Source: a virus. From it: a stretch of DNA of 47,959 nt. Both the position numbers and the translations under genes were made by a program. Below the pieces are notes generated by a model. That model saw nothing but the letters and a program-made list of their open reading frames with translations, did no database searches and had not been told where the DNA came from. This document shows, in pieces, positions 15,014 to 42,940 of the stretch; position 1 is the stretch's first letter, and every line of letters begins with the position of its first letter. The stretch spans positions 1-47,959 of the IMG/VR virus record IMGVR_UViG_3300022916_000027; one strand, given 5' to 3'.

Positions 15014-15242
15014 AGTTGTAACTATCCTCCGTGTCATCGAGTATACAGGCCCTGTTGAGGATGTAAATAGATGTATTGCAGAACGGCGAGTTAAAGGAGT
15101 ATATCGTCCTGCTATGATGGGTCTCGGTGTTACAATCCGTGAGGGCTTACTTGGCGAAGTTCCTAGACCTATTCAAGGCGATGAGGTAAATCATTATCTC
15201 CGCTTTGATATTCCTGAGAAGGAGTTAGACACTGATGAGTAA
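15006..15242 (+). CDS. Small hypothetical protein, 78 aa
   Basis: ATG at 15006 with AGGAGGAAGAAG, overlapping the ATPase gene by 8 bp. Translation includes VVTILRVIEYTGPVEDVNRCIAERRVKG and IREGLLGEVPRPIQGDEV. No family recognised. Overlaps the protease gene start by 8 bp. Confidence 0.7.
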   Translation: MSRVVTILRVIEYTGPVEDVNRCIAERRVKGVYRPAMMGLGVTIREGLLGEVPRPIQGDEVNHYLRFDIPEKELDTDE

Positions 15243-16377
15243 GAAAATCGAAGCAGCGATAGCCGCGAACGCCGAGGCTTTGATGGCTAAGCTCAACGTC
15301 GTAGCCGTCGGAGAGGCGGAGAAGGAGAAGAATGGGAGGAAGACTGGCAAGCGGGGCCTGACCATCTACGTCGAAGGGAAGGTTCCGAAGGATCAGATCG
15401 CAGCGAAGGATCTTATCCCTCGAACAGTCGATGGAGTGAAGACTGATGTCGTGATTCTCGAAAGGGCGAAAGCCCTCCCTCTCCATGAAGGCTTCGAGGA
15501 TCGCTTCGATGGATGGCGTAGGCCTTATCTGATGGGAGACGAAATCGGCCCGACTTACCACAATCAGTGCGGGACGCTCGGAATGATCTTCCGTGCTTAC
15601 GGTCAGGATCTTGGCTTGACTAACTGGCACGTCCTTCACGCCAGCGATGACGAGGGCCAGGATATCAAGAATCATCACGTCTCTCAGCCAGGCTGGAAGA
15701 AAGCCGGGCAGCCAGAACCCACCTTCATCGGCGTAGTCGAAGCTCATTCAACGCTCGACCCTTCGACGCTTTATAACAAAGTCGATGCGGCCGTCCTTTC
15801 TCTCGAAAAGCCAGGCGGAAATGCGGAGAAACCGAATCCAGGATGGAACGCCCCAGGAAGCTTCTGGGATCGACATCTCGACACCATCGCTAACCGTGGT
15901 TACTTCAGCGAAGCAGGCGGCGCTCCTCTTCTCGGTTGGCCTCACTATCATAAAAACTTCGCCGCTCTCGTCCGAGATATTAAGGAGCCTAGCGGCTGCC
16001 GACCACAGCCTCACGGCCTCGGAACAGTTGACATCGGAGATCGAGTCTGGAAGAGCGGAAGAACGACGGGAGTGACCAGCGGAACCGTAATCGCGACGAA
16101 CTTCAACGCTGGTGTCTCTTACGGCGGAAAGCTAGGAACCGTTCGCTTTACTCAGCAAATCATGGTGAGGCCAGATCCTGCCCTCGGAGATCCTGAGCTG
16201 ATCGTGGCCGGTGGAGACTCGGGAAGTCTGGTCATTGATGAGACCGGGAACGCCGTCGGCCTTCTCTTCGCCGGAAGTAGCTCTTACTTCATCGCGAACA
16301 TTATTCAGAATGTCTTTGAACTCGTCCTTCCCGGTATTGAGAAGATTTATAATCTCAACCGCGAGGCCTTGTTATGA
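15235..16377 (+). CDS. Trypsin-like (S1 fold) serine protease
   Basis: 380 aa. The catalytic triad is readable: His132 in LTNWHVL, Asp184 in KVDAAVLSL and Ser329 in GGDSGSLV. The N-terminal ~80 residues (VVAVGEAEKEKNGRKTGKRGL, IPRTVDGVKTDVV) match the leader domain of bacterial S1-family proteases that have a VGVG...TG...VPxxxIDGVxTDVVE region. No signal peptide, so it should act in the cytoplasm. It is translationally linked to replication genes rather than to capsid genes, so it is unlikely to be a prohead protease. A role in cleaving a host or defence protein, or processing a phage protein, is inference. Confidence 0.85.
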   Translation: MSKKIEAAIAANAEALMAKLNVVAVGEAEKEKNGRKTGKRGLTIYVEGKVPKDQIAAKDLIPRTVDGVKTDVVILERAKALPLHEGFEDRFDGWRRPYLMGDEIGPTYHNQCGTLGMIFRAYGQDLGLTNWHVLHASDDEGQDIKNHHVSQPGWKKAGQPEPTFIGVVEAHSTLDPSTLYNKVDAAVLSLEKPGGNAEKPNPGWNAPGSFWDRHLDTIANRGYFSEAGGAPLLGWPHYHKNFAALVRDIKEPSGCRPQPHGLGTVDIGDRVWKSGRTTGVTSGTVIATNFNAGVSYGGKLGTVRFTQQIMVRPDPALGDPELIVAGGDSGSLVIDETGNAVGLLFAGSSSYFIANIIQNVFELVLPGIEKIYNLNREALL

Positions 16378-18762: not shown

Positions 18763-18942
18763 ATGGCACTCATCGACAAAGAAGTAGAAATCTTCCATCG
18801 GATAAGCCTTTGGGAACTAACCAAACAGATTGAAAAAGATACCGATGAAGATGAACTCATTTCTTTCATTCAATCGTTGATGACAGAGCGAGACTCAATG
18901 AAATGCTACGAAGCTATTCAAACTTGGCTTGAGGAGGCTTAA
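18763..18942 (+). CDS. Small acidic helical protein, 59 aa
   Basis: ATG at 18763, SD TAAGGAAA. The sequence around this start (GAGGCTTAAGGAAATG) is nearly repeated at the next gene's start (18934-18949), a small direct duplication of a translation-initiation region. Helical, acidic (LTKQIEKDTDEDELISFIQ). Function unknown. Confidence 0.6.
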   Translation: MALIDKEVEIFHRISLWELTKQIEKDTDEDELISFIQSLMTERDSMKCYEAIQTWLEEA

Positions 18943-18946
18943 GGAA

Positions 18947-20323
18947 ATGAAAAAGTGCCGGATGGAAAATCTCCCAATCTTCAGCATCGACCTGGGAGAT
19001 CGGGCGAGGAAAGATTATAAGGACGTAAATCTCCTCTGGGAAAAGATTCAAGAAAAAGGCCTCCTTCACCCAGTCGCAGTCATGGAGAAAAATGAAGAGA
19101 TGATGGGCAAGGAGCGAGCTCTCGGTATTGATCCAAAGCCCTTCCTTCTCCTCGCTGGCGGCCGTCGATATCTAGCTCACGCCCTTGGCGAAGCGAAGAC
19201 GATTCCAGCTAACATCTTTGAGGAAGAACTCTCGATCCTTGAAATCAAAGAGCTAGAACTGATGGAGAATATTGATCGAGAGGATCTTAGCTACGCAGAA
19301 GATAGTGCGCTGAAGGCTGAAATCCACGCACTTCAGATTGAACTCCACGGAGAAGCTGCAGGGCCGAGTGGCGGAGCTTCCATCCGGAAGACGGCTGAAC
19401 TCCTAAACGTCAGCGTGGGCGCGCTTTCTGAAGATATAGAACTGGACAAAGCCATAAAGGATGATCCGACCCTTGGCCAGATGGCCACGAAGACTGAGGC
19501 GAAGCGCGCAGTTAAGAGGATGAAAGCTGATAGAGTCCGCGAAGAAGTGATGAAGCGGCATCAGGCAAAGATTGAAGAAGGTGGCGGAGAGCCCGCGAAG
19601 AATGCCTTGATTGATTCCTTTGTCGTCGGAGATTTCTTCGAGAAAGTCAAGCAGATCCCTGATCATACCTTCCACGTTGTGGAGGTCGATCCGCCTTATG
19701 CTATAGATCTAAAGAAGGTCAAGCAGAATGACACGGATCGAACAGCGCTCAATCGCTATAACGAAGTTGACGCTGGCGAGTATGTGGATTTCATGACGAA
19801 GGTCTTCGACGAAGCTTACCGAGTTCTTCAGGAAGACGGCTGGGTTATTTGCTGGCTCGCTATCCATCCTTGGTATCAGACGATCTTAGGTCTCATGACC
19901 AACGCGGGCTTCAACACCTACGGGCTTCCGAACATCTGGTATAAGACTAGCTTCACTGGTCAAACGAGAAATCCTGAAGTCCGCTTCGGAAGTGTCTACG
20001 AACCTTACTTCTTCGGACGGAAAGGAAAGGCCATTCTTTTCAAGCAAGGTCAGCCGAATGTCCATCCCTTCTCGCCAGTTCCCTCCCTTAAGAAGGTCCA
20101 TCCGACGGAGCGGCCAGTTGAGATGATCTCAGACGTCCTGGTTCGCTTCACCCCGCCTGCTGGTCGAGTTCTAGTTCCCTTCGCTGGCTCTGGCAATACA
20201 CTTCTCGCGGCCGCCAACATGGGGATGAAACCGCTTGGTTTCGACCTGACTCAAGAATGCAAGAACGCATTCGTTGAAAGGGTCGAAGCCAGGAAGATTG
20301 GAGATTTCTCTTCTTATGTCTAA
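18947..20323 (+). CDS. ParB-domain / DNA methyltransferase fusion
   Basis: 458 aa from ATG at 18947 (SD TAAGGAAA). Residues ~5-115 form a ParB N-terminal domain: FLLLAGGRRYLAHALG (canonical GERRxRA box, here GGRRYLA) and ENIDREDLS. Residues ~144-165 are HTH-like (SIRKTAELLNVSVGALSEDI). The C-terminal half is a beta-class N6-A/N4-C methyltransferase: DPPY at 248-251, then HPTERP (385-390) and the SAM motif FAGSGNT at 412-418. Such fusions occur in phages and are thought to modify DNA against restriction. The ParB part could give site targeting. The genome also carries a perfect parS site, which makes a link worth testing. Confidence 0.88.
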   Translation: MKKCRMENLPIFSIDLGDRARKDYKDVNLLWEKIQEKGLLHPVAVMEKNEEMMGKERALGIDPKPFLLLAGGRRYLAHALGEAKTIPANIFEEELSILEIKELELMENIDREDLSYAEDSALKAEIHALQIELHGEAAGPSGGASIRKTAELLNVSVGALSEDIELDKAIKDDPTLGQMATKTEAKRAVKRMKADRVREEVMKRHQAKIEEGGGEPAKNALIDSFVVGDFFEKVKQIPDHTFHVVEVDPPYAIDLKKVKQNDTDRTALNRYNEVDAGEYVDFMTKVFDEAYRVLQEDGWVICWLAIHPWYQTILGLMTNAGFNTYGLPNIWYKTSFTGQTRNPEVRFGSVYEPYFFGRKGKAILFKQGQPNVHPFSPVPSLKKVHPTERPVEMISDVLVRFTPPAGRVLVPFAGSGNTLLAAANMGMKPLGFDLTQECKNAFVERVEARKIGDFSSYV

Positions 20324-20522: not shown

Positions 20523-22907
20523 ATGAACGCGCCATATTGTGAAGGGCCTCTTCAGGCTAAAATCGCCTTCATCGGGGAAGCGCCAGGGGCAGAGGAGGAG
20601 AAACTCCGCAGACCCTTCGTGGGAACTGCAGGTCGACTTTTCAATGACCTTCTGCGCAGAGCTGGCATTCAGCGCCATGATGTCTATATCGACAATGTAT
20701 TCCAGGAACGGCCAGCTAATAATCAGATTAATCTCTTCGCTGATCTTACGAAGAAGGTTCCTTTGCTGACTCCAATCTGGAATAACCACGTCGAGAAGTT
20801 GAAGGAACGACTGGAGGCTAGCGAGGCTAATGTCTTTGTCTGCCTTGGCAACACGCCACTCTATGCCTTAACTGGCCTTAGGGAGATTACTAAGCGGCGT
20901 GGAAGCATTCTTGAAAGCACTCTCCTTCCTGGTCGAAAGGTAATCCCTTGCATCCATCCTTCCTCTGCCCTCCGTCAATATCTTCATCAATATCTAATCA
21001 TTATGGATATGACGAGGGCGAAGGAGCAAAGTGAGTTTCCAGAGATTCAAAGGACTGAGCGAAGCCTCCTTCTCAATCCTGGTTTCCAAGATGTAATGGA
21101 TTGGCTCTCGGACGATCACCACTGGGAATTTGTTGCCTTCGATATTGAGGTGAAGTTCGGTGAGGTCAGTCATATCTCCTTCGCCCCAGATGCTCACAAC
21201 GCTATCTGCATCCCCTTCGTCGACGGCGTCAAGGACTGGTGGGCACCGGATCAGGAGGCTGCAATCTGGAAAAGAGTTGCGGAGATCTTAGAGAACGAAG
21301 AGATAAGGAAGGTTGGCCAGAACGTCTCTTTCGACGCAACCTTCCTATATCGAAAGTACGGAATCCACGCAAAGCCTCTCGACGATACTATGATCGCTCA
21401 GGCAATCCTCTATCCTGATTTCCCGAAAGGCCTGGACTTCATCACGGCTAGCTACTGCGCCGGGGAACCTTACTATAAGGATGAAGGAAAGGAGTGGTTC
21501 AAGAATCCCTTCGCATCCGAGGAGATCTTCCGGAACTACAGCGCGATGGACTCAGCTGTTGTAGCGGAAGCCTTTCCGAAAATGATGGCGGATCTTGAGA
21601 AGCAGGGGAATTTCGAAGCTTACAAACGCCAATGCCAGCTCATCCACCCTCTCGTATATATTGGTGAGAAGGGGATTCCTATGGATACAGAAGGGTTGGC
21701 AAAAGAATCAAAGCTCTGCGATGCCAAGATCGAAGCGCTCCAGACTGAGCTTCGTGAGATCTGCGGATTCGATCTGAACCCTGCCAGCGTTAAGCAAGTC
21801 AAGGCTTACTTCTACGTCCAGAAGGGGCTAAAGCCTTACACCAAGCAAGGCAGTGTGACGGTTGATGATAAAGCTCTAAAGAGAATCGCGGCGAAGGGGC
21901 ATCGCGAAGCTATCATCATCCTCGAACTCCGGCATCAGAAGAAGATGAAGGGGACTTACTTCGATATGAAGCTGGATGATGACGGACGTCTTCGCTGCTC
22001 CTACAATCCCGTCGGAACGAAGCAAGGCCGGATCTCTTCCTCCAAGACCATCTTCGGGACTGGTGGAAATCTCCAGAATCAGCCTCCTGAGATGCAAAGC
22101 TATATGCACGCTGACCCTGGATATATTGCTATCTCTATGGACCTCGGCCAGGCGGAGAATCGTGTCGTAGCTTACATCGCGAACGAGCGAGCAATGATCC
22201 ATGCTTTCGAGCAAAAGATCGACATTCATAACCAGACCGCAGCTATGATCCTGGAGAAGGACATCACGGAGGTTACGAAAGATGAAAGAGGAACCGTTGG
22301 AAAGCGGGCTAACCACGGACTTAATTACGATCTGGGATACAGAACTTTTGCTATCTATTATCAAATACCTGAGCGAGAGGCCGCCTTCATTGTCGAACGG
22401 TATCATCAGATCTATCCTGGTGTTCGAGAGTGGCACGCGAGTATCCGTGAAGAGCTATCCAAATCGAGAACTCTCCGTAATTGTTTCGGACGAAAAAGGA
22501 CATTTATGGACAGATGGGGCCATGAACTCTTTAAAGAGGCTTATAGCTACATCCCTCAAAGCACAGTTGCGGAAAAACTCAACCTCTGGGGATACGTATA
22601 TATTTACGAAAGGCAAGATCTATTTCCCGAGGTAGAACTCTTGAACACCGTTCACGATTCGATTAAGTTCCAGGTTCCCCTCGATGTCGGAGCGGATCGA
22701 ATTGTCGAAGTCATCAACAACATCAAGGATAATCTCGAAACCCCTCTCGAATGGAAGGGCCGGGAATTCTCTATCCCTGTCGACACGCACCTCGGATTTA
22801 CGCTCTCAGAAGCAGAAGGGCTGGAGTGGAAGGCGGATGCCGTTAATGAAACTGCCGACGCTGATCTAGCCGAGGAGATAAAAGAATATGTCTCGGCAAA
22901 TAGCTGA
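20523..22907 (+). CDS. polA: UDG-domain / family A DNA polymerase fusion
   Basis: 794 aa, SD AAAGGGAAA. Residues ~1-165 form a uracil-DNA glycosylase-superfamily domain: GEAPGAEEE (18-26), RPFVGTAGRLF (30-40), IHPSSAL (144-150). Residues ~200-350 are a DnaQ-like 3'-5' exonuclease: FDIEV (D207, E209), NVSFD (D271), YSAMD (D343). Residues ~400-794 are the Pol I-type polymerase: motif A MDLGQAENR (D540), motif B RGTVGKRANHGLNYD (K594) and motif C VHDS (H711, D712). The Phe762-equivalent (E. coli numbering) is His598. UDG-polymerase fusions are known in some phages such as SPO1. This is the replicative polymerase. Confidence 0.95.
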   Translation: MNAPYCEGPLQAKIAFIGEAPGAEEEKLRRPFVGTAGRLFNDLLRRAGIQRHDVYIDNVFQERPANNQINLFADLTKKVPLLTPIWNNHVEKLKERLEASEANVFVCLGNTPLYALTGLREITKRRGSILESTLLPGRKVIPCIHPSSALRQYLHQYLIIMDMTRAKEQSEFPEIQRTERSLLLNPGFQDVMDWLSDDHHWEFVAFDIEVKFGEVSHISFAPDAHNAICIPFVDGVKDWWAPDQEAAIWKRVAEILENEEIRKVGQNVSFDATFLYRKYGIHAKPLDDTMIAQAILYPDFPKGLDFITASYCAGEPYYKDEGKEWFKNPFASEEIFRNYSAMDSAVVAEAFPKMMADLEKQGNFEAYKRQCQLIHPLVYIGEKGIPMDTEGLAKESKLCDAKIEALQTELREICGFDLNPASVKQVKAYFYVQKGLKPYTKQGSVTVDDKALKRIAAKGHREAIIILELRHQKKMKGTYFDMKLDDDGRLRCSYNPVGTKQGRISSSKTIFGTGGNLQNQPPEMQSYMHADPGYIAISMDLGQAENRVVAYIANERAMIHAFEQKIDIHNQTAAMILEKDITEVTKDERGTVGKRANHGLNYDLGYRTFAIYYQIPEREAAFIVERYHQIYPGVREWHASIREELSKSRTLRNCFGRKRTFMDRWGHELFKEAYSYIPQSTVAEKLNLWGYVYIYERQDLFPEVELLNTVHDSIKFQVPLDVGADRIVEVINNIKDNLETPLEWKGREFSIPVDTHLGFTLSEAEGLEWKADAVNETADADLAEEIKEYVSANS

Positions 22908-24051: not shown

Positions 24052-24476
24052 ACGCGGAAAGGATCTTAGAAAACCTTCTCGAAAAAGGAAAGATTACGGA
24101 GGCTGATCTCGTCGACGTTGGAGAGATTACGGATGACTTCAAGAACACTGTCAAGGTCGTCCATGCTCTCTTCGAGAGACCTGAGATCGCGAAGGGCTTT
24201 CATCTTGAGGAACAAATGGCAGATGGCTGGACGCGGGAGCATCATCGAATCTGGACAAATCATACTAAAAAGATTCTGGAGATCCTCGAAGTAAGTAATG
24301 AGGATCTCCAGAAGATAATCAACATCGCTGTTCAGCTAAATAAGAATCTACCTCGCGAAAATGCTGAGGCGATCATGGACTTCTTCATCGCCATTCATGA
24401 GGAGGAATCTATAACCTCCTTTATCTCCGGCCTTGAGGATTCTGGCGAAGATATACCTGCTTTACCTGCTTCGTAA
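24048..24476 (+). CDS. Hypothetical protein ending the early arm
   Basis: 142 aa, ATGA overlap with the helicase gene. All-helical (KILEILEVSNEDLQKIINIAVQLNKNL). Its 3' end overlaps the 3' end of the minus-strand polyvalent gene by 56 bp, so the arms converge without a gap. No bidirectional terminator is obvious; only a weak AGGAGG...CCTCCT hairpin near 24401-24423. Confidence 0.7.
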   Translation: MNAERILENLLEKGKITEADLVDVGEITDDFKNTVKVVHALFERPEIAKGFHLEEQMADGWTREHHRIWTNHTKKILEILEVSNEDLQKIINIAVQLNKNLPRENAEAIMDFFIAIHEEESITSFISGLEDSGEDIPALPAS

Positions 24477-27400
24477 CAGATCCTCGCAGGCGTCTGATCG
24501 TGCGGTCGATGAACTTTATCTTCTGCACATCAGATAGCCTGGCGTAGCCTCGGCCACCAAGCGCGAGAGAGATAGCTTCCTTCGTCCTGGCTCCATAAAG
24601 AAGAGCGTATTCCCGCCAAAGTTCATCTGAAAGCTCGTGCTTCTCTCCAGAGATTGTAATCTCCTTGCTCGGAAGACCAGGATAGACTCCAAGTCTTTCC
24701 AGCTCCTGCTCCGTTGGATCGTCCGTGCTATCACTCCATTTGAAAGGAAGCCATTGGCGCATCGCTCCGCCAGGAAGTCTAATCTCTTCTCCGAAGTTAT
24801 TCAACCTAGCCTTCCCTTCATCATCTATGATATATTCACTGAAGGGAATCGTGTTAGCCAGCGCCGCCGTAAAGCCCTTCGCCTCCCTCAACGTCGCATC
24901 TCCCTCCGTGATTGCCTCAGCTGCCCGATTAAAGCTTCGGAAGAAACTGGAATAAGGAACCATGGAAGATGGGAGCCGCTCTACGACACGCTGAATCCCC
25001 TTATCATCCATCAGCCTCGAAACGTTCTCAGTATAGGTTGAGCTGATAACAGTCCTCATCATTACGTTTCCAAGCGTTGAGACATACTCCATCAGCTCCG
25101 ATTCCTTAACATCTTCTCTCTTCGTCGCTTCCATGATGTTGGCAGTGATAGCCAGCGGAAGAGCAAAGGGCTCGAACTTTCTATAACTAATCCAAGTCCC
25201 GTTTATCTTGACTGCGTAAGGAATCTTGCCCTGACGATAGAAGGCATCTCGTTCAGCTTGCCTTTGGGGAACGGCTCCAGTAATTGGGAAGTCGCCTTCG
25301 TCATCTGGATCACCGAAAGCCAGCGTTGTCGCCATCGCCAAGATCAAGCCCTCGACTTGCTTAGTAATGACATCAGAAGCTTCAGCTTTTCCCTCCTTGA
25401 TATTATTACGAGAAGCAAGATATCCGACACCAGGAGTTATCTCAACCCCTCTCTTCAGGATGTTCGTTAGAGTATTAACGAAAGGAACAATCAAGCGACC
25501 GACGCCGAAGGGGACCTTGTCCCTCAATCTAATAATATTCGTCGCGAGCGTTCCCGGCGCGTCCATGAAGGTCGCATACTCTCCGAACTGCGCGGCGTCT
25601 GCAATGATATTCTCTGGCGGATTCGCAATGACTTCCTTGAACGACTTCCCAGTCTTCTTCGCCTCCCTTACGATGAGGGCATTAAGCTGAGCGTCGAAAG
25701 CCAAGGCATGAAAGAACATATCTTGAGCTTCAAGTGCCTTCGCCGGGCGAGAGATATAAGGAGCCAGCGCTCTCATCCAAGCATGAGGAGAGCGTTCAAA
25801 GGCTTCGAAGCTCTGCCCCATTTCTCTACGCCACTTCGTTGCTTGGCGGTCGAAGGTGTCAGGGTCCATCCCCTTCTTATCTACGAGATAACGGTAAGTC
25901 TTATTAGCTCGATTCTTAATCCCTTTCCACATCGGGACGACTTCGTCCAGGAAGATATTTCGACTCTCTTGATGCAGCGAAGGAAAGATGCTATGTACTA
26001 GCTCGCTAGTCAAAGTCTTATCAACCGCTGCCTGCAACGCTCGATGCGGGAGCTGGAAAGCCAGCCATAAAGCATTATTCCCTACGTTCACGAAGTGAGT
26101 CGGAATACCAGAGAGGATGGAGTTATAAAAATACTCGAAGAAGTAATCCTTAGCCTTCGGCTTCTGAAGACGATTATACATATCTCTCGCCGTCTGCGGA
26201 TCGTTGATTGAGCCATCCTTTACGATCTGAGAAAGATAAGCCGCATCTTCTTCAGAAAGTTCAGTCTCAAGATTCCGGAGATGTTCCCAGAGGAGATAAG
26301 GATCTCTCATCCTCTTCCTGGCTTCGAGCCTCCGGCCAGCGTCCTTGCTAAGCATTGAGGCCACTTCAAAGTCATGGTCAGCCTGTTCCTTAAGAACCTT
26401 CGCGATGTCAGGCTCCTCTCCCATTGCCCACTGATCCAAAGCATTAACATACCCTGATGCGGAATAAGTATCCAGCGCATCTGCTTCTTCGAGAGAGATC
26501 TGACCGGTCTCAAGGAATCTTTGAACAAGGGCTTCCATACCAGGAAAGCCTTTCTTCCGAAGGATCTCAGTACTTCGACTTTCCAGATCCTCCCTTGTCA
26601 TTACCGTCGGATCAGCCTTCTTCGAGAGTTCATCTTGGATTAACTGCTCCATCGCTTTGTCGAGGTTGATCCGAGTTAGATTAACATTCCCTGCGTATTC
26701 CTTTGCCTTCTTATCCTGGAAGGAATAGCGATCTTCAATTGTGACAATCGAGGGATCATAAACAACGTAGTTGGCGTCTTTTATAACGGAGCCTCTTACT
26801 GTATTTCCTCGAAGAGTGTTTGGAGGATACTTAGTTCCATCTATTCCCTCTGCCCATAAAGCGCGACTAGCTAGAACCCTAGCCTTATTCTTTCCCAGCG
26901 CTGGATCGTTGCTTCTGAATATATCCTTTAGATCCCAATAGTAGCTAGAATAATCTCGTAAGGCTAATTCCTCCTCTGCCATCTTTGCTTCCATTTCCGC
27001 CACATCTTCAAGGGAATCCCGCAGTGCTTGCCTTGCTTCCTCCATCGACAGAAAATCACCGAGTCTATTCTCCCCTGAGTCATAAATAACAAATTTACCT
27101 TTCTCAAACTTGATGTCGTAGTCAATCTCCATGTTATCAAGAATTAGTTCTTTATCAACTACGAACCGAGCCATACGTCTTCTAATTAAAGATTGTACAA
27201 CTTCCTGTGCTTCTGCTAACGTATTTGTTTCTCTGACCAGTCTTCCATCCGCGCCATAAACAGCGGCACCGCCATCATCAAGTGGCTTTGCTGTATATGT
27301 TTGAGCAAGCGCTCCTTCAAAGGCTCTTTTGATTTTTCCTAGTTGCCGCTCCGTTGGTGGCGCATACCAGTCCGGTATATCATAATTAGCTGGATCTTGG

Positions 27401-30393
27401 CCTTTACGAAGGAAAGCAGTATATATATGTCTTCCACCGCCCTGAAAGTACACTAAGGTAAAGTCGGATTCCTTCAACTCAATATATTCGCGAAGATCTT
27501 TATGCGCTTCTAACGCTCTATCTAAAATACGCTGAGCTGCTTTGTCATCCCGTGATTTAAGTACTTTACGTCCTTCAGTAATAGTTTCCTGTAATTTTGC
27601 TTCCTGGCTTGCTGCGACTTTATGTATGATGCCTACAAATTGTTTAAGTGTAATTTCTTTATCAGCCAGAGATGCTGATGCATCTTGAAGATCTACACTA
27701 TGCTTATAGAAAGGTAAATCCAAAAAGTGGGTATCTTTTCCTCCTATATTAAGTGTAAGTTCAATATCTGTAAAGGAGCTGTCTGATCCAGCTATCTTTG
27801 CATATAGCTCAGCAATGCTTCTAATATTTGTAAAGTAAAAGCCAGCACCGAAAGCAAGACTGCCTTCGCCACTCATAAGATACTGAAGATCCATCTCATC
27901 ATAAATTGCACCACTTCCGTGGTAAGCAAATATCTGCGAAAGATACCCGCTCTGCCCTCTCCCATTCGGGGCACTCTTCAGATGAATATTCGCGGCTTGA
28001 ATCAATTCCTCCTGCGTCATCTCCACACCAACGGCATCCTTCGCCGCCACCCACATATCCTTCATCCAGCCGCCAACCCTCTTCGCCGGCCCCGCTTGAA
28101 TGCGATCAGCGTAATACTGTCCAACGGCATCGCTGAGCTCTTCCTCTGGCTTCTCCTTATCCTGATAGAAAGCCAGCATTTCCTTTGCAATCGGAGTATC
28201 TCTTCCGAGAAGATCCAGGAGCCGATGAAACCCCTCATGTCCGATTGTATTAAACTCAACATCCGCTGAGAGATAAACAGTCCCAGTCGCTCGATCAAGG
28301 ACAGCGTTGGCGGGCTGGCTAGTTCCTGGATGATATAGCTGTCCAGGCGTCTGAACCACTCTTCCAATGATTCCAGAAGTTTGAAGCGGAAGAGCTAGAC
28401 GTTGACGTTGGATAGCCGTTGGTTCAGCCTTGTCTTTTGCGCTCGCCGTACTGATCGTATTCTGTTCCTCAGCCATTCCTTCACCTCTGTTCAAAGTATG
28501 AACAGAGGTGTCGGTTGTGATATATGCCGCGACGTCCGCGAGCATCGTGTCAGGTAACTCTTTAAAGGCCTTAATTGCTTCAACTTCATCAAGCGCCAGA
28601 ATCCGATCCCCTTCAGCCTTCACCTCATCGCTGAACTCTCTCGGCTGTCCGATGAAGCGATCCCCGATGTCAAGAAGTCTATTTTCTTTTCTCGCCTTTA
28701 TCTGCTCTTCGAGAGCGGCAACGGTTCCAGGCTTCGGTGCTCTTTTAGCAAGCTCAGCTTCTTCTCTTTTCTGTTGTCTCCGCTGCTTCCTAATCTCTGC
28801 CTTCGAAAGAGTTGCCTTCTCCTGCTCTGCATCACGTTGCGTCGCACGATCTGCTCTCCCTTCAGCGGGCCTAATCCCCTTCGTCCAACCAGGCTGACTC
28901 TTCTCCCAGATCTTTGTCCACTTCGCCCCAGCGCTTGCTCTCTTCGTCGGAGGTCCTTGCTCTTCCCGACTCGCGATGTAAGCCTTCAATCCCTCGCTAT
29001 CCGTATCCTCCGGATTAGCCTGATTCCACGCGAAGATCAGCTCACTCTCTGAAAGCTCAAGCGCAGCCATCTCCGCATTCGGAACCTGGCCAATTGCGCT
29101 AACTCTCTCCACATCCTGCTTTGCGAAGGCAGTCGCTTCGTAAGCGGTCTCGATCAACTCATTTGTGTAGAGAGCCTTGTTAAAGTCTAGTTCCTGCCTC
29201 GACGCATCTGGAAGGGTCGGAAGATTTCCCCTTACAATCTCCGCCGTATTCGAGACGCCAAGCGGCTGCGTTCCAGTCATTGCCTTCGGATCATCCCCTG
29301 CCGCGAGCCTCGAAACAGCTTGCCAGTTTCTAGCTTCCGAGAAAGTCCTTGCCTTGCTAGGATCCGCCGCGAGCATCATAGCTTCTCGTGCCAGCTGAAT
29401 ATTCGTCGCCTCCGCTTTGATAACAATCGGATTCTGCTTATCCGAAGAGGGCGGAAGGTTGCGCAGTTCATCGGGAGCTTCTCCCTCTTCCACTCCTTTA
29501 ACATCCCTAGCCATGCGCCGCACACGCTTGGGGAGCAAAGGAAAAGAACCAAAGCCTCCTCCCAGAAGGCCTCCCAATCCCGCCTCCCTTACGCCTTCCA
29601 GCAATCCCTGATCAGGATTTACCAGGATTTGTGTAAGGCTATTCTGCACAAACTGTTCCGCCCCCTCCTCAGCACCTTCCTCCACTGCCATCGCGCCGAT
29701 GATCTTAGCCGCCTCAGGGATATTCTTTGCAATGAGACTATCCGCAACTCTCTTGAAAAGAGTCGGTGCTTGCTTCTTAAGAACGTAATTCCCCGCTACC
29801 ATCCCCAGCTTCTCCATCGCAAACGCAGAAGCACCGAAGCCAAGAGCTAGGGCAATCTCGGTTCCATCACTTACATCCTCGCCTGTTTCCGTCTCATACT
29901 CTCGAACGATCTTTCTAGCTTCTCCCGCGCTGGAAAGACCATAAGCGGTCAGGACTCCGTAAGAAAGAGGGATGGCCGCCGGAGGAAACATAATACCTCC
30001 AGCCAACGCCGCCGCTGACGGAATGGCCGACGCCAACGCACTTCCCGCGAGAGCTGCGTTCCCAGTCGCTGGATATTCGAAAGCTGTCTCTTGCCTCGTC
30101 CTATCTGCCTCTTCTGCATAACCGAAGAGTTCCTGATAACTAGCCATCATGCTTCCAGGAACAGCCATAAAGCTATTCACGAAGCTATCAAAGCCAGAAG
30201 GAGCAGGGTCTGGGCCTAGCCTCATCATGAAGCGCTCCCTCATATCACGCTGCTCTCCTCTCGACATCTTCCCAAAGCGTGGATCGAGAGAGAAGTTGTT
30301 GTCAAAATAGCTGGTCGCCATCTTGACCTTATCACCATAAGGCATGGCTTTAAAGCGATTATCGCGCTCAATATCTGTCCACTGTAGCGGCAT
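24421..30393 (-). CDS. Polyvalent virion protein: metallopeptidase + ART-like + LPD38-like
   Basis: 1990 aa, start ATG 30393 (TTAGGAG upstream). Residues ~100-155 are hydrophobic Gly/Ala-rich helices. A zincin motif HEGFH (719-723, HExxH) follows QLYHPGTSQPANAVLDRATGT. Residues ~823-1225 have an ADP-ribosyltransferase-like domain: YHGSG (824-828), GEGSLAFGAGFYFTN (842-856), then AEGIDGTKY and NYVVYDPSIVTI (1208-1219). Residues ~1415-1700 (NSILSGIPTHFVNVGNNALW) resemble the large polyvalent-protein associated domain LPD38. Such proteins are carried in the virion and injected. A palindrome-SD-ATG at 28476 may give a 1351-aa C-terminal product. Last gene of the late arm. Confidence 0.85.
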   Translation of the reverse strand: MPLQWTDIERDNRFKAMPYGDKVKMATSYFDNNFSLDPRFGKMSRGEQRDMRERFMMRLGPDPAPSGFDSFVNSFMAVPGSMMASYQELFGYAEEADRTRQETAFEYPATGNAALAGSALASAIPSAAALAGGIMFPPAAIPLSYGVLTAYGLSSAGEARKIVREYETETGEDVSDGTEIALALGFGASAFAMEKLGMVAGNYVLKKQAPTLFKRVADSLIAKNIPEAAKIIGAMAVEEGAEEGAEQFVQNSLTQILVNPDQGLLEGVREAGLGGLLGGGFGSFPLLPKRVRRMARDVKGVEEGEAPDELRNLPPSSDKQNPIVIKAEATNIQLAREAMMLAADPSKARTFSEARNWQAVSRLAAGDDPKAMTGTQPLGVSNTAEIVRGNLPTLPDASRQELDFNKALYTNELIETAYEATAFAKQDVERVSAIGQVPNAEMAALELSESELIFAWNQANPEDTDSEGLKAYIASREEQGPPTKRASAGAKWTKIWEKSQPGWTKGIRPAEGRADRATQRDAEQEKATLSKAEIRKQRRQQKREEAELAKRAPKPGTVAALEEQIKARKENRLLDIGDRFIGQPREFSDEVKAEGDRILALDEVEAIKAFKELPDTMLADVAAYITTDTSVHTLNRGEGMAEEQNTISTASAKDKAEPTAIQRQRLALPLQTSGIIGRVVQTPGQLYHPGTSQPANAVLDRATGTVYLSADVEFNTIGHEGFHRLLDLLGRDTPIAKEMLAFYQDKEKPEEELSDAVGQYYADRIQAGPAKRVGGWMKDMWVAAKDAVGVEMTQEELIQAANIHLKSAPNGRGQSGYLSQIFAYHGSGAIYDEMDLQYLMSGEGSLAFGAGFYFTNIRSIAELYAKIAGSDSSFTDIELTLNIGGKDTHFLDLPFYKHSVDLQDASASLADKEITLKQFVGIIHKVAASQEAKLQETITEGRKVLKSRDDKAAQRILDRALEAHKDLREYIELKESDFTLVYFQGGGRHIYTAFLRKGQDPANYDIPDWYAPPTERQLGKIKRAFEGALAQTYTAKPLDDGGAAVYGADGRLVRETNTLAEAQEVVQSLIRRRMARFVVDKELILDNMEIDYDIKFEKGKFVIYDSGENRLGDFLSMEEARQALRDSLEDVAEMEAKMAEEELALRDYSSYYWDLKDIFRSNDPALGKNKARVLASRALWAEGIDGTKYPPNTLRGNTVRGSVIKDANYVVYDPSIVTIEDRYSFQDKKAKEYAGNVNLTRINLDKAMEQLIQDELSKKADPTVMTREDLESRSTEILRKKGFPGMEALVQRFLETGQISLEEADALDTYSASGYVNALDQWAMGEEPDIAKVLKEQADHDFEVASMLSKDAGRRLEARKRMRDPYLLWEHLRNLETELSEEDAAYLSQIVKDGSINDPQTARDMYNRLQKPKAKDYFFEYFYNSILSGIPTHFVNVGNNALWLAFQLPHRALQAAVDKTLTSELVHSIFPSLHQESRNIFLDEVVPMWKGIKNRANKTYRYLVDKKGMDPDTFDRQATKWRREMGQSFEAFERSPHAWMRALAPYISRPAKALEAQDMFFHALAFDAQLNALIVREAKKTGKSFKEVIANPPENIIADAAQFGEYATFMDAPGTLATNIIRLRDKVPFGVGRLIVPFVNTLTNILKRGVEITPGVGYLASRNNIKEGKAEASDVITKQVEGLILAMATTLAFGDPDDEGDFPITGAVPQRQAERDAFYRQGKIPYAVKINGTWISYRKFEPFALPLAITANIMEATKREDVKESELMEYVSTLGNVMMRTVISSTYTENVSRLMDDKGIQRVVERLPSSMVPYSSFFRSFNRAAEAITEGDATLREAKGFTAALANTIPFSEYIIDDEGKARLNNFGEEIRLPGGAMRQWLPFKWSDSTDDPTEQELERLGVYPGLPSKEITISGEKHELSDELWREYALLYGARTKEAISLALGGRGYARLSDVQKIKFIDRTIRRLRGSVTKQVKQVYLRQNPQGRR
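28485..28507. repeat. 23-bp palindrome copy inside coding sequence
   Basis: CTCTGTTCA-AAGTA-TGAACAGAG, both arms perfect, in frame within the 1990-aa gene (about residues 630-637). Read on the minus strand it is followed by GTGAAGGA and an ATG at 28476, giving SD AGAGGTG five nt from an in-frame start codon at residue 640. Confidence 0.9.
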
Positions 30394-30405
30394 CTTACCA
30401 TACTC

Positions 30406-31596
30406 CTAATTGAAGCGAGAACCCCGTTCGCGGCGCGCTGGTTTCTTTATAGTACTTTCTCCACGCAGACCGGGAGCAATACCCGTTGCTTTCTCCTTCT
30501 TCTTTCCGCCTCTATTACTATCTCCCTTTGGTTCCTTCTTTTCCTCTTTCTTTGCTGGTGCTTTCTTCAGAGGTGCTTCCTTCTCCCCTTCTACTGCAGG
30601 AACTTCAACACCTGCCCCTTCCGCATAGAACTTAAATTGATCTGGCGGTGTGACAGTGCCTGCTGTCTTCTCCAAGCCCTCCGCAAACTCCTCCAGCCCA
30701 AACGATTTCAGCAAGCGAACAAACTCCGCCGTTGATTCCGCTGGAGTTAAAGGCTGCGTCTCAAATCTGTTTAAGTTCACCATCTGCTGCATGACAGCAT
30801 TCAGCTTGACCCCCATCATCGGATCGTCACCGAACCTAGCTTTGTTAGCCTTAATCTGCCCAGCCACATCTAGCTGAATTCCGAGAAGGCGGAAGGTTGC
30901 AGCAGTCACCGCAACGTCCAGCTGGCCTTCCCTGTTACTTTCCGCGATAGCTGCATCAATCCCACCCTTCTCGCGGATAAGCTCAAGGTCTTGCTGAGAG
31001 CCTTGATATTGCTCGAAGCGATCTTCCTCGCCCTGTGCTTTGATGAGTTCCTTCCGCTTCTCCGTTTCTGATTTCAGGCTTTTCCCAACTTCCTCACCGC
31101 CTGCCTGCCAGTTAGGATCAATGCCAGCAGCGGCGTATGCCTGATTTGTCATCTGAATACGAACGTTCTCAGGAAGGTCCATATTGGCAATTTGTTCTAA
31201 CTGCGAAAGAAGCTCTTTATTCTTACCCAGTGATGTCGCCTGTCCTTCCTTCTGCAACTTCAACGCACGTTCAATCTGATCAGGATCCAATCCTCGCGTA
31301 TCAACATCGCTGATATTCTTCCCCTCAAGGAGGTCTGAAAGAGTTGAGGAGAATATATCCTGCTCCGCTTCCCCTGCGATCAGATTCCCAATCTGGGCGA
31401 AAGGGTGAGCCTGGTCCCCAATTACTGCGGCGCCAGCACGACCTAGCGCCGAAGCAATACGATTTCCTCGGTTGTCACTTTTCTTCTTAGTTGTTGTATT
31501 CGCTCCGCCTAGGGGAGGCGCGCTGGCAATAGGCTTAGCCTTAACAGGCTGCCCGGCTACGCCGCCAGATCTTTGAGCAAAAGGATTACTTGGCAT
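30406..31596 (-). CDS. Putative internal virion / ejection protein
   Basis: 396 aa, SD AAGGAGAATAGAAA. N-terminal ~70 residues are low complexity (Gly/Ala/Pro/Lys), the middle is helical coiled coil (LKLQKEGQATSLGKNKELLSQLEQI; ETEKRKELIKAQGEEDRFEQYQG), and the C-terminal ~80 residues are Lys-rich and disordered (KKAPAKKEEKKEPKG). Size and location between the polyvalent protein and the tail genes match podovirus ejection proteins. No enzymatic motif seen. Confidence 0.65.
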   Translation of the reverse strand: MPSNPFAQRSGGVAGQPVKAKPIASAPPLGGANTTTKKKSDNRGNRIASALGRAGAAVIGDQAHPFAQIGNLIAGEAEQDIFSSTLSDLLEGKNISDVDTRGLDPDQIERALKLQKEGQATSLGKNKELLSQLEQIANMDLPENVRIQMTNQAYAAAGIDPNWQAGGEEVGKSLKSETEKRKELIKAQGEEDRFEQYQGSQQDLELIREKGGIDAAIAESNREGQLDVAVTAATFRLLGIQLDVAGQIKANKARFGDDPMMGVKLNAVMQQMVNLNRFETQPLTPAESTAEFVRLLKSFGLEEFAEGLEKTAGTVTPPDQFKFYAEGAGVEVPAVEGEKEAPLKKAPAKKEEKKEPKGDSNRGGKKKEKATGIAPGLRGESTIKKPARRERGSRFN

Positions 31597-31608: not shown

Positions 31609-32751
31609 TTAAACAGCGCTACCCGCGAGAGCGCCAACAACTCCGCCTGCGGCCGTTATAAATGGATTGCCTCCTGATACCTTAGCTCCCAATGCTGCCC
31701 CTGATAAACCCCCAGATAAAGCAGTCTGAACTCTGGATGGCCCGGTAGGGAGAGCAATGATCGAGCCGGAACCTGCGCTAACAACATTTCCCATTCGTTG
31801 CATGGCTTCGGCGTCCCAAAGAATTTCTCTTGCGTCGATCTCAAGATTTTTCTCATACTCCTCAGACTTTGCAATAATCTTAGTTCGCTTAACATCAGCA
31901 GTTATGTCTGTTAGCTTCTGCTGATTAGCAAGATCATCCCCAGTTAATCCTAAGACCATCTGCGAAGCGCCAAGCATGTAAGTAAGCTTATCTTTCTGCG
32001 CGCCGCTATAGCTTGAAAGATAATCTCTTACGACGTTTAGATAAACTTGAATAAACGCACCAAATGCTGCTTGCGTCATAGGAAGACGCAGATCATTTGA
32101 AGCTTCCTTTATTCTATCCTCAAAGTCACTTTCGAGGATAGAAAGACCGACGGCAAACGCGGAGCTGTTCACAGCATTGATATCACTCATCGGTCCAGTA
32201 AAGCGATTAAGGGCTCTGGTATGAACCTTCCGAGCCTGCTTCTCATAAACAGCAACAGCCTCCGCCATGACTTCGTCTGTCACCGCTTGGCTTGCTGCAT
32301 TCGCGGCAGCCGCGATAACTGGATCACCAAGAGATTGAGCCCGTGCAAAGACCGTCTCAATAACTGCATCTACATCAAGATAAGGAAGATCTTCCTCTGC
32401 ATCCGGCTCGAAGACATCTATCCAACCAGGAACATCCACGATAGGATTAATGGCCTCAACAGCTGTCTCAAGTTCACCTAGCCGAATATCAACGTCCGAG
32501 AGTTCGCTGTCAGGAACATACGTGCTAACACCTTCAAAGGGATTCCCTCCTTTCCCAGTTGCGGCCTTCTCAAACATCCATCTAGCGATAGAAGGATTTT
32601 CCACGAAGGTTGTGGGCGTTGTAGCTGTTGACCAGCTAAAAGCAGCCCCAGAATCCCAAGCGAAGCCAGAATAACCTCTAGCTGCCGCTTCCCAAGTATC
32701 CGAAACTTCAGTTGGTATAGACGTAGCTGCCGTAGAACCGCCACCACCCAT
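31609..32751 (-). CDS. Putative internal virion / ejection protein with Gly-rich tail
   Basis: 380 aa. ATG at 32751 (MGGGGSTAAT) is chosen because GGAGG lies 7 nt upstream; an ATG at 32757 abuts that SD. Helical core (DKLTYMLGASQMVLGLTGDDLANQQKLT; AKSEEYEKNLEIDAREILWDAEAMQRMGNV), C-terminal Gly/Ala-rich hydrophobic segment (FITAAGGVVGALAGSAV) that could insert in membranes. This pattern is common in podovirus DNA-ejection proteins. Function inferred. Confidence 0.65.
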   Translation of the reverse strand: MGGGGSTAATSIPTEVSDTWEAAARGYSGFAWDSGAAFSWSTATTPTTFVENPSIARWMFEKAATGKGGNPFEGVSTYVPDSELSDVDIRLGELETAVEAINPIVDVPGWIDVFEPDAEEDLPYLDVDAVIETVFARAQSLGDPVIAAAANAASQAVTDEVMAEAVAVYEKQARKVHTRALNRFTGPMSDINAVNSSAFAVGLSILESDFEDRIKEASNDLRLPMTQAAFGAFIQVYLNVVRDYLSSYSGAQKDKLTYMLGASQMVLGLTGDDLANQQKLTDITADVKRTKIIAKSEEYEKNLEIDAREILWDAEAMQRMGNVVSAGSGSIIALPTGPSRVQTALSGGLSGAALGAKVSGGNPFITAAGGVVGALAGSAV

Positions 32752-32753
32752 GA

Positions 32754-33194
32754 TCATACCTCCAAGGTTATAAAATAAGTGGATGCGTCACCCCCTAAGG
32801 ACTCAACAACATCCTTGATTCTTTTCACGGATGTTAAGGCCACAATTGCGCGGCAGTGAGTCCCTTTCGCATATTTCTTTAAAGTTTCAAGTCCATCTTT
32901 CCACATGATTTCTTCGATCTTATTATAACCATAAAGAGCGTAAATAAGAAGATTTCTGTCTGCTGTTCCAGGGTCTTCCCAGATGGTTGTAATAACTAGA
33001 GCATAAACTTTCGTGTTCTCCTCCTGCATATCAACTAATGCCCAAGCTTGCATATTGTCTTGAAGTAGTCTTGTATGTATGTTATTTAGCGCATCATCCG
33101 TTGCGTCTGCCAGAGGAGGAACACTAGCCCTTAGGGCTGCATCAATATCTTCCCAATACCGTGAAATAAGATTAGATTCCAGCTTGGTCAGCAC
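32754..33194 (-). CDS. GNAT-like small virion-module protein
   Basis: 146 aa, overlaps the nozzle gene by 23 bp. Sequence YALVITTIWEDPGTADRNLLIYALYGYNKI then CRAIVALTSVKRIKDVVESLGGDASTYFITLEV has the beta/alpha rhythm of GNAT-like folds found next to tail genes in several podophages. No acetyl-CoA loop can be read with confidence. Enzyme or structural adaptor: undecided. Confidence 0.55.
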   Translation of the reverse strand: MLTKLESNLISRYWEDIDAALRASVPPLADATDDALNNIHTRLLQDNMQAWALVDMQEENTKVYALVITTIWEDPGTADRNLLIYALYGYNKIEEIMWKDGLETLKKYAKGTHCRAIVALTSVKRIKDVVESLGGDASTYFITLEV

Positions 33195-35665: not shown

Positions 35666-36970
35666 CTACGACACGTCGTTCTTCAAACCGACGCCGTTCA
35701 GATACGCCGACTTCTCGCCGTGATGAAATTCCAGCCCGGCCTCCGTCAGATACTCCTCCTGCTTCCCGTCCACCCCCGTCCCACCGCCCTCGGTGTCCGT
35801 CTTGTCCGGCTTGAACATCGTGTCCGTGATGTATTTATACCGGATCTGCTTCGGCTCGAAGATGACCATCGAGTTCCGATTGGTCGCCTCGTAGCTGAAG
35901 AGCGGATGGCGCTTGAGGTTGATCACGCCGAAGGGTGTGACCCACTCCACGACCTGGATGCCGAAGGCCTTCTCGCGGACGTTTAGCTGGATATTCCCGA
36001 CGCTCTTGGCCAGCTGGTTCAAGCCGAGCAAAGCTCCGCTTCCGCAGAACGCCAGCTTCTCATCCGCGCCGTAGCGGAAGACCTCTTCCAGATGCTCGTC
36101 CATCCACTGGTCGCCCGCTTGAAGCCAGGTCATCCCGGCGTAAGCCGCATCCGTTTCGAGGGTGTAATCCGCCACGGTTCCGGCAGCCTTGATGAAGGAA
36201 AGCAAGCCGCCGGTGGTAGTCTCCGGCTTCCCGTTCACTCCCGTCCCCGAAGTCGCGATGCCCCAGATGAACGCCTTCTCCATCCCGATGCCGTGAAGTT
36301 CCAGCGCGTCCCGTTTGGCCTCGAGATAAGCCTTATCGGTCCGCAGCTTCGTCTTCATCAGCGTCCGAGCAAGCTCCAGCGGATCTCGGAAGATCTGCGT
36401 ATAGTTCTCATGCTCGGTCGGGCTCTGGGTGATGGCTTCCGGCCGCGTTCCACCCTGCGGATTCGCGTTACCGATGATGAGGATAACATCCGCATCGCTG
36501 AGGTCCAGGCTGGCCGCAGCACCGTTGTCGTCCGCTTCCAGAAGGCTAACCACGACGTAGCTGCTCGCGCCATTCTCCTGAACATCGGTGACCTTCGCCG
36601 CGCAGTCCACGGTGTAGTTGCTGGCATCCCGCAACATCACGATCTGCCCAGTCCTGAACATATTGATCCCGGCAGCAGGGATCTTCACATACAGCGTGGT
36701 TCCTGCCACACCACCGGAGGTGTAAGCGTTACTCAGCGCGACGTCGGTGTAAGTGGCCGTAATCGCACTCCTCTGCGTGGTCAGCGTCTTCGTCCACCAA
36801 TGGTAATGAGGATCAGAAACTTCCTCACTTGCCATCAGCGCAGTCAAGGCCGTCAGCGGCATATCCCCGTTAGGGAACAGCCTCAGAATGCCCTCGCGCC
36901 AGCTCTCTGGCCGTTCGTTCGTGGCGAGATCGCCAGTTGCTCTAAGTCCTACAAAATACTGGTCAGTCAT
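35666..36970 (-). CDS. Major capsid protein, SU10/DUF5309-like
   Basis: 434 aa, SD AGAAAGGTTTAGAAA. Pattern ESWREGILRLFPNGDMPLTALTALM, QSPTEHENYTQIFRDPLELARTLMKTKLR and EKAFIWGIATSGTGVNG, followed by a C-terminal VINLKRHPLFSYEATNRNSMVIFEPKQIRYKYI, is the SU10-type HK97-fold major capsid. Located after scaffold and decoration genes in transcription order. Forms the icosahedral shell. Confidence 0.85.
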   Translation of the reverse strand: MTDQYFVGLRATGDLATNERPESWREGILRLFPNGDMPLTALTALMASEEVSDPHYHWWTKTLTTQRSAITATYTDVALSNAYTSGGVAGTTLYVKIPAAGINMFRTGQIVMLRDASNYTVDCAAKVTDVQENGASSYVVVSLLEADDNGAAASLDLSDADVILIIGNANPQGGTRPEAITQSPTEHENYTQIFRDPLELARTLMKTKLRTDKAYLEAKRDALELHGIGMEKAFIWGIATSGTGVNGKPETTTGGLLSFIKAAGTVADYTLETDAAYAGMTWLQAGDQWMDEHLEEVFRYGADEKLAFCGSGALLGLNQLAKSVGNIQLNVREKAFGIQVVEWVTPFGVINLKRHPLFSYEATNRNSMVIFEPKQIRYKYITDTMFKPDKTDTEGGGTGVDGKQEEYLTEAGLEFHHGEKSAYLNGVGLKNDVS

Positions 36971-39175: not shown

Positions 39176-39473
39176 TATCTTGCTCTCCTTCATCAGTCTC
39201 CTTCAAGCGATCCACGATCCTGTCTGGTATTTCCAGAAAGCTACGAATCGCATAACATTGACCTTGCAGAAAGGCAAAGTCTTGCATGGTTACTTCGTCT
39301 TCTTTCCCTATTGTTTCCATCTCGTCTCGAACGCCAGCTAGCATCATTGCGAGGACTTTCCTCATATCTCCCCAGAGATCACCATTCTCAAACCTCTCCC
39401 AGTCAACTGGAGTTGTTTGAAGATGAAGATCTTGTCCGCCTTCCAAAACCTTAACCATTTCAATTAAGTGCAT
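39168..39473 (-). CDS. Small hypothetical protein between portal and scaffold
   Basis: 101 aa. ATG at 39473 has GAGGGAG 8 nt upstream and overlaps the portal stop by 14 bp. Helical (WGDMRKVLAMMLAGVRDEMETIGKED, FLQGQCYAIRSFLEIPDRI). Function unknown; small helical proteins in this position are common in phage morphogenesis clusters. Confidence 0.7.
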   Translation of the reverse strand: MHLIEMVKVLEGGQDLHLQTTPVDWERFENGDLWGDMRKVLAMMLAGVRDEMETIGKEDEVTMQDFAFLQGQCYAIRSFLEIPDRIVDRLKETDEGEQDNG

Positions 39474-41428: not shown

Positions 41429-42940
41429 TTATATCACCCTCTCATAATCAAGCGCCGGCTCTTCTAAATCCTCGAGATCAGCATATTCCGCTTCAATATC
41501 TTCCCCAGTGTCCCTCGGCTCAAAGTACCGATCCCCTTCTTCCAAAACATAGATGATGCCAGAAAGCGCATCAATTACATCCCATTTGCTCGGTCTCGGC
41601 CACTGAAGGAGATACTTCTCAATAATCCCTGAGCAAGCCGAGCTATGCTTTACGAGCTTATTCCTATACATCGGGACGAGGCCACCACTTCTCCTCGGCC
41701 CACTCTTTCCTTCTCTTGGCGAGACCTCCACAATGACATAGAACTTGCCAAGCCTGAGCATCTCGTTTCTTAGCGGATAAGTGATATATTCGTGAAGGCC
41801 CGTTACCTCCGGCGCAATCACCAAAGCGTTCAAACGCTCCGCCATTGCGAAGGTCTCATTGTAGAGAGTGTCAGGATACATCTGATCCTCGATGATTTCC
41901 CTCACGAAAAGCTCATTCGTCCGAGTGTTAACGCCAACGCCAACTATCGCTGTGTTAGCACTTCCAGTCTTCATCGTCCGCGCAGGGTCCATGAGCACGA
42001 CACTCTCGACATTCGAGTCCTTGTTTAAGTCTACATCTTTCTCCTCATACTCTTGGAAGTATTCTTGCTTGAAGCCAGCGTTCTCCTTCGCGACTGGAAT
42101 GTTCCTAAACTCACGATATAGAACATCCAGCATTTCATTCCTTCTATAACTATTCGCCAACTTCTTAATATCTCCATCTGTCATGTGCTCAGGCCAGATA
42201 CTCTTATAATTATCATCAAAGAGCTCGAGCCTAACCGTCTTCCAATCCGGATACTTCTCTTGATCCAGAAGATTATTAAGGAGAGAATCCTCATGAAGAA
42301 TAGTCCCTACCACAATAACTCTCCAATCCCTTCTCCCTCTTTCCACGCTGTTGAGAAGGGCTGAGAAGAACCACTTCTTAAGTTTCTCTCTCCGCTCTTC
42401 ACTCTCCACCCCCTCATCATCCTCAAGATCATCCACGAGGATAAGATCAGGCCGCTGGCTACGAAACTTTCTACCACGAACCTGCTGGCCCGCCCCGCGA
42501 GGCATGACCTTAGTCCCTTTCGCCGTAACCCATTCCTTCCGCCCAAAGCTATCCTTCCGTTCCTCTGGCTCAAAGTTCCCGAAGAGTGCTGCAATATCCT
42601 CGCTCTCGATCAGCTGGGTCTTAATATCCTCACTTTGCTCAACCGCGGAATCTGATGTTGCTGAGACCGGGATGATGTAATGACTGTCCTGAAATATCAT
42701 CCTCTTGATCGGAAAGATTGTATTTACTAAAGTCGTCTTTCCAATCCCACGAGGAGCGGCAATGGCCGCCGTCTGAATCGAGTCATCGTCTAAGATCTCA
42801 AAGATCGGATCATGGAGCTCTGGCGAAAACTCCTTATAGAAAACAGCAGGGAAGAAGGAGCGGCAGAAATACTTGAAAGAGTGATCGCACTCCGCAAGAA
42901 ATTCCTCCACTTCCTTCTCATTAGCCAGATTCTCACTCAC
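41429..42940 (-). CDS. terL: Terminase large subunit
   Basis: 503 aa, start ATG 42940 (overlap 4 bp with the upstream gene). Walker A PRGIGKTT (63-70), Walker B DLILVDDLED (~165-174), coupling motif VVGTIL (~211-216) and RNase H-like nuclease Asp318 in VVLMDPART. A classic ATPase-nuclease packaging motor, about the usual length. Together with TerS at 3118 it translocates DNA into the prohead through the portal. Confidence 0.95.
   Translation of the reverse strand: MSENLANEKEVEEFLAECDHSFKYFCRSFFPAVFYKEFSPELHDPIFEILDDDSIQTAAIAAPRGIGKTTLVNTIFPIKRMIFQDSHYIIPVSATSDSAVEQSEDIKTQLIESEDIAALFGNFEPEERKDSFGRKEWVTAKGTKVMPRGAGQQVRGRKFRSQRPDLILVDDLEDDEGVESEERREKLKKWFFSALLNSVERGRRDWRVIVVGTILHEDSLLNNLLDQEKYPDWKTVRLELFDDNYKSIWPEHMTDGDIKKLANSYRRNEMLDVLYREFRNIPVAKENAGFKQEYFQEYEEKDVDLNKDSNVESVVLMDPARTMKTGSANTAIVGVGVNTRTNELFVREIIEDQMYPDTLYNETFAMAERLNALVIAPEVTGLHEYITYPLRNEMLRLGKFYVIVEVSPREGKSGPRRSGGLVPMYRNKLVKHSSACSGIIEKYLLQWPRPSKWDVIDALSGIIYVLEEGDRYFEPRDTGEDIEAEYADLEDLEEPALDYERVI

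Follow-up and report, generated by a model that had tools for sequence, protein, structure and literature searches.

A predicted phage ejection protein with a zincin-type metallopeptidase and a putatively inserted ADP-ribosyltransferase

The subject of the current study is an open reading frame (ORF) for a protein of 1990 amino acids (aa), which is located on the minus strand (24421-30393) of the IMG/VR record IMGVR_UViG_3300022916_000027. The window analysed here is this entire tailed-phage record with a length of 47,959 bases. The most probable interpretation, to which we assign a probability of about 0.72, is that of an injected ejection protein that combines the chassis of its lineage with a recently inserted ADP-ribosyltransferase (ART) of the H-Y-D type; its zincin-type metallopeptidase would serve in processing, and the ART would act on a host macromolecule. 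An earlier note on this DNA, which left the strand unstated, had proposed a virion protein with both enzyme domains. Our comparisons support the presence of both, in a protein with the position and backbone of an internal virion or ejection protein.

Shared chassis and ART cassette

The chassis, composed of an N-terminal region, the zincin and a C-terminal region of the internal-virion-protein type, is common to the lineage at the sequence level, and in the proposed scenario the ART would have entered it between zincin and C-terminus. The homologues P0006 (IMGVR_UViG_3300017963_000085) and P0007 (IMGVR_UViG_3300034152_000302), which are encoded at the same gene place and exhibit up to 43% identity, retain the N-terminus, the zincin and the C-terminus, but differ from the window protein by the absence of the ART. 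The relative G001 aligns to residues 5-301, the zincin and residues 1333-1970 (43% identity) but not to the ART. In the full alignment its gap falls between the zincin and the C-terminus, as does that of the second relative.

The base composition of the gene traces the same borders. The guanine-cytosine content (GC) and its equivalent at third codon positions (GC3) amount to 0.53/0.52 in the N-terminus, 0.53/0.50 in the zincin and 0.50/0.53 in the C-terminus, compared with 0.417/0.319 in the ART. The GC3 dip extends from near codon 811 to about 1225-1230, and its edges are those of the ART domain (Fisher p = 5e-14, a guide only, because codons are not independent). Moreover, the chassis of the window was found in none of the 17 sampled ART-bearing records. 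Based on the ART-less relatives, the foreign composition and the absence of the chassis from these records, we consider it more likely that the ART was recently captured as a cassette than that the relatives lost it.

In the relatives L025 and L029, the junction between zincin and C-terminus is represented by a short conserved linker (HLSDIYHKGSSEI and HLNDIYYRGQSDL, respectively) at the place where the window has the ART. This linker is faintly reminiscent of the ART start (YHGS), which could be a scar or a chance resemblance.

The combination of an ART and a metallopeptidase in a single phage protein, which had been regarded as special in the earlier note, is ordinary and has been known since 2017. 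In 41 of 91 ART-bearing open segments (at least 600 aa), an in-frame HExxH motif precedes or follows the ART, and the pair was described by Iyer et al. 2017, who found zincins to be the commonest domain of polyvalent proteins and ARTs to be the commonest protein-modifying domain therein (PMC5512222). The window protein provides a clear example of the insertion of an ART cassette into an ejection protein, in which the insertion is still visible.

The two enzyme domains

Residues 815-1225 represent, according to sequence and structural model, a complete polyvalent-type (H-Y-D) ART with a predicted NAD+-dependent transferase activity. The formerly suggested ART-like domain in residues 824-1219 is hence confirmed by the conservation of the H-Y-D residues in homologues and by the modelled ART fold. 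The motif residues comprise YHGSG (824-828), GAGFYFTN (849-856) and NYVVYDPS (1208-1215), and an H-Y-D arrangement with H on strand 1, Y on strand 2 and D on strand 5 has been reported for ARTs of polyvalent proteins (ART-PolyVal, Tox-ART-HYD2; PMC5512222). The signature HG[ST]...GxG[FL]Y is far above chance, occurring in 0.04% of composition-preserving shuffles. Further elements of the core are a middle YxVxLxKGxxPxxYxxxxW stretch and, in its C-terminal part, the NYVV[FY]D strand, and the reading frame is unbroken over 411 codons. Pattern searches for ART relatives retrieved at least 343 from viral contigs and 42 from genomes. No near-identical copies of the ART or the whole gene were found in other viral contigs, and those with an identical terminase are short fragments.

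The ART was modelled separately from the zincin; a joint alignment of both domains had been dropped, because the rows without ART were misplaced. In the structure of the cyanophage A4 pre-ejectosome (9k3a), the resulting model can be superposed on chain B, residues 1418-1606 (VIA-align Z 11.6, 176 residues, root-mean-square deviation 4.2), and weaker matches were obtained for tankyrase PARP domains (Z about 7) and MbcT (6.8). A single module that looks similar to those of the insert within the ART (Table 1) is located at its place in L074, and another one was observed in the Desulfofustis phage protein P0002.

Residues 660-812 are a zincin-type domain of the polyvalent-protein metallopeptidase (MPTase) kind, for which peptidase activity is predicted. 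The HExxH motif alone is weak evidence, with a chance of 1.7% in composition-preserving shuffles of the 1990-aa protein, and we hold the domain to be real because the motif is conserved in relatives together with the predicted third zinc ligand. The assignment of HEGFH (719-723) to a zincin thus stands: none of the residues H719, E720, H723 and E751 varies among 15 domains in an alignment with metallopeptidases from ART-bearing ORFs, the hhalign comparison with 22 MPTases from ART-bearing ORFs has a probability of 95.7% (E 9.2e-9), and the predicted fold is that of a zincin. In the model, helix 75-90 holds HExxH and helix 110-127 holds E751, with a short helix (95-102) between them. The top of the VIA-align list consists mostly of zincins, i.e. 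IrrE/PprI, lethal-factor-type domains, PPEP and ArdC, and in BFVD the best viral matches (E 2e-4) come from crAss-like and other phages, where they are structural and polyvalent proteins. When the zincin, the ART, the C-terminal part and the whole protein were used as queries against the sequences of solved structures, only chance-level matches resulted.

Proposed mode of action and alternatives

We propose that the large protein would be packaged together with the products of the two upstream genes and would be ejected before the DNA or along with it. The zincin may be responsible for processing the ejected polypeptide in the course of assembly or entry, perhaps with its own protein as the substrate, and a processing function of polyvalent-protein zincins has been proposed by Iyer et al. 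2017 (PMC5512222). Within the first minutes of infection, the ART would transfer ADP-ribose from NAD+ to a host macromolecule, comparable to Alt of phage T4. Given that the zincin is conserved in relatives without ART, it more likely belongs to the ejection-protein chassis and acts as a processing protease; a second weapon is the less likely reading.

Several observations weigh against this interpretation. The relatives without ART could have lost the domain, although the composition favours a gain in the window. The match of the ART to the Pfam family ART-PolyVal (PF18760; E 1.7e-4, 17.5 bits) is below the curated cut-off of 31.2, and the match to DUF3990 is below cut-off as well; the clearly polyvalent proteins P0003, P0004 and P0011 likewise remain under the PF18760 cut-off. 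Model confidence is moderate for both domains (predicted local distance difference test 79 for the ART and 75.5 for the zincin). Foldseek searches against PDB provided no significant match for either model, and a re-ranking with VIA-align was needed. The Z-scores of the zincin are modest (at most 6.7, the value for IrrE/PprI), though the list as such is consistent. Finally, the A4 protein has no detectable relation to the window protein outside the ART fold.

A tentative extension of our proposal, clearly on the doubtful side, is that this lineage's ejection protein offers, between zincin and C-terminus, a slot for cargo, where unrelated effectors are swapped in and from which the zincin would free the cargo after delivery. 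If so, the ART of the window would be one such cargo caught soon after its capture. A possible mark of proteolytic cleavage is the motif [LIMFY][FY]Q, which was found beside the ART borders in 9/35 and 8/31 cases in HExxH-containing ORFs versus 1/64 and 0/59. We do not claim it as a cleavage site, because its frequency in the remainder of those HExxH proteins is that expected by chance (41 observed, 40.9 expected) and the comparison is confounded by ART subfamilies. In P0003 of the Rhodobacteraceae phage LS06-2018-MD07 (L010, 10116-19269), [LM]FQ occurs six times near the borders around MPTase, ART and methyltransferase, and [LIMFY][FY]Q is present in total eight times versus 2.6 expected (P 0.003). 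These may be cleavage sites, but the other proteins exhibit no general enrichment.

The earlier note regarded zincin and ART as an anti-host pair, i.e. a two-pronged weapon with the zincin cleaving and the ART modifying host proteins. The catalytic residues are retained in both domains, and host-targeting is among the possibilities that Iyer et al. 2017 considered for such metallopeptidases (PMC5512222). Nevertheless, the zincin is kept in two close ART-less relatives together with the rest of the chassis, as a chassis part would be, and its base composition is like that of the chassis and unlike that of the ART, which makes this explanation improbable. We consider it equally improbable that the ART shields the phage from an NAD+-based host defence, either by consuming or competing for NAD+ or by modifying a defence protein, rather than redirecting host transcription. 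The phage-host conflict over NAD+ and ADP-ribose is widespread (PMC9503650) and an early delivery is consistent with such a function, but the sequence evidence does not tell the targets apart. An enzymatically inactive ART, representing a relic or structural passenger, is very unlikely: the odd residues next to the motif (GAGFY in place of GWGLY) and the long insert with two extra modules are outweighed by the retention of H825, Y853 and D1213, by a frame of 411 codons free of interruptions and by a core that is entire down to the C-terminal NYVVYDP strand.

Genome context and known systems

The 1990-aa protein probably represents the large ejection protein, in the position of T7 gp16 or P22 gp16, of a short-tailed phage with a SU10-type capsid. 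Its gene is the last one of the minus-strand virion block, which starts with the terminase (41429-42940) and continues with the portal (39460-41427) and the SU10-type major capsid protein (35666-36970). The internal virion protein family phrog_6651 matches the C-terminus of the window protein and of both relatives (3/3 members), and the C-terminus also resembles proteins named "internal virion protein D" from a number of marine and Desulfovibrio phages. The two upstream neighbours fit the expectation for a set of ejection proteins (Table 1).

Table 1. Coordinates of the 1990-aa gene, its neighbours and its predicted domains and residues
Feature	Position	Strand	Evidence or remark
Large internal virion / polyvalent protein gene, 1990 aa	24421..30393	-	Final gene of minus-strand virion block
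396-aa protein, directly upstream of the 1990-aa gene	30406..31596	-	Same place in relatives L025 and L029
382-aa protein	31609..32757	-	Weak match to P22 gp7-like ejection protein PF25688 (E 0.0094); Gly-zipper PF13441 (E 0.002); same place in relatives
N-terminal chassis region, residues 1-330	29404..30393	-	Alanine/glycine-rich hydrophobic stretch at 113-141; 31% identity over 5-301 to relative G001
Zincin-type metallopeptidase domain, residues 660-812	27958..28416	-	Conserved residues, profile match, predicted fold
HEGFH motif, residues 719-723	28225..28239	-	H719, E720, H723 invariant in 15 aligned domains
E751, predicted third zinc ligand	28141..28143	-	Invariant in 15 aligned domains
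ART cassette, residues 815-1225	26719..27951	-	GC 0.417, GC3 0.319
H825, predicted NAD+-binding histidine of H-Y-D triad	27919..27921	-	54/54 homologues
Y853, predicted triad tyrosine	27835..27837	-	54/54 homologues
Insert within ART, residues about 1033-1145, two tandem beta-beta-beta-alpha modules (about 50 aa each)	26959..27297	-	Secondary structure of model
D1213, predicted triad aspartate	26755..26757	-	41/54 homologues
C-terminal chassis, residues 1380-1990, internal-virion-protein type	24424..26256	-	phrog_6651 E 2.7e-17; 43% identity over 1333-1970 to G001; hhalign 98.7% to MW202801 protein

Phages whose capsid proteins are related likewise have a giant last virion gene in this position, namely, those of Desulfofustis, Microcystis, Vibrio, Caulobacter, Pseudomonas (PaP2) and Roseobacter (CRP-810). 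On reading, the giant proteins of the Desulfofustis phage, PaP2 and Kuura contain neither HExxH nor the H-Y-D ART signature. HExxH is present in those of Vibrio phage VS-ABTNL-3 and Microcystis phage Mel-JY34, and the CRP-810 protein harbors two HExxH motifs and an ART. Profile comparison of these giant proteins with the window chassis revealed no similarity; the shared feature is therefore their position rather than a demonstrated homology. In PaP2 gp25 (L033, 18491-24040), the giant protein at this genome place, a YRGL...SYTF stretch may represent an ART of the R-S-E class.

The window protein resembles the polyvalent proteins of Iyer et al. 2017 (PMC5512222), which are large phage proteins with a zincin-like MPTase and an H-Y-D ART (Tox-ART-HYD2) in one chain and a predicted injection. 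It differs from them by its chassis of another internal-virion-protein type, by the visible insertion of the ART relative to close relatives, and in that neither LPD38 nor an N4-like RNA polymerase was found. The LPD38-like region proposed in the earlier note could not be recovered, as a search of the window for PF18857 remained without a match (E<=10), but the control genomes also gave none, so its absence is not proven. Similarity to the phrog_6651 proteins and internal virion protein D of T7-like phages is confined to the C-terminal part, and the zincin-ART middle of the window protein is extra.

The structure of the cyanophage A4 pre-ejectosome was reportedly studied by Hou et al. in 2025 (cited in PMC12810830). 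Chain B of 9k3a is gp27, which is identical to ORF27 of Anabaena phage A-4L and likewise represents a giant ejection protein whose gene closes the virion block. Its C-terminal YHGT...GxGxYF domain is the one that superposes on the window ART, with YHGT...GSGTYF at the matching place, and an ART-like domain has therefore already been seen in a solved ejection machine. HExxH is absent from gp27 and from the adjacent gp28, gp29 and gp31. T4 Alt, which ADP-ribosylates RNA polymerase, corresponds to the window ART in the predicted mode, i.e. delivery together with the DNA. It belongs to the R-S-E class and to a different ART clade from H-Y-D (PMC5512222).

Three genes on the plus strand complement the picture of the window. 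The separate S1 protease gene of the earlier note exists (15235-16377; 380 aa, Trypsin_2 E 3.6e-4, GDSGS at 327), and its trypsin-like product (Nal1/Trypsin_2) is encoded in the early/replication block and has no obvious signal peptide; the suggested tie to the 1990-aa protein does not hold, as both genes are located on opposite strands and nothing links them. A DNA polymerase I-like protein (20523-22907; PolA, residues 173-663) is fused to an N-terminal family-4 uracil-DNA glycosylase (UDG_fam4 E 8e-24, residues 6-168), and a fusion of ParB_N with an N6/N4 DNA methylase is encoded at 18929-20323.

The sequence evidence joins two ideas, namely, that ARTs are carried inside the ejection machinery of phages and that they are transferred as cassettes from one ejection protein to another, unrelated one. 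The relatives show that the metallopeptidase should not be read by default as part of an ART weapon. The relatives with and without ART represent a natural comparison for the contribution of an injected ART.

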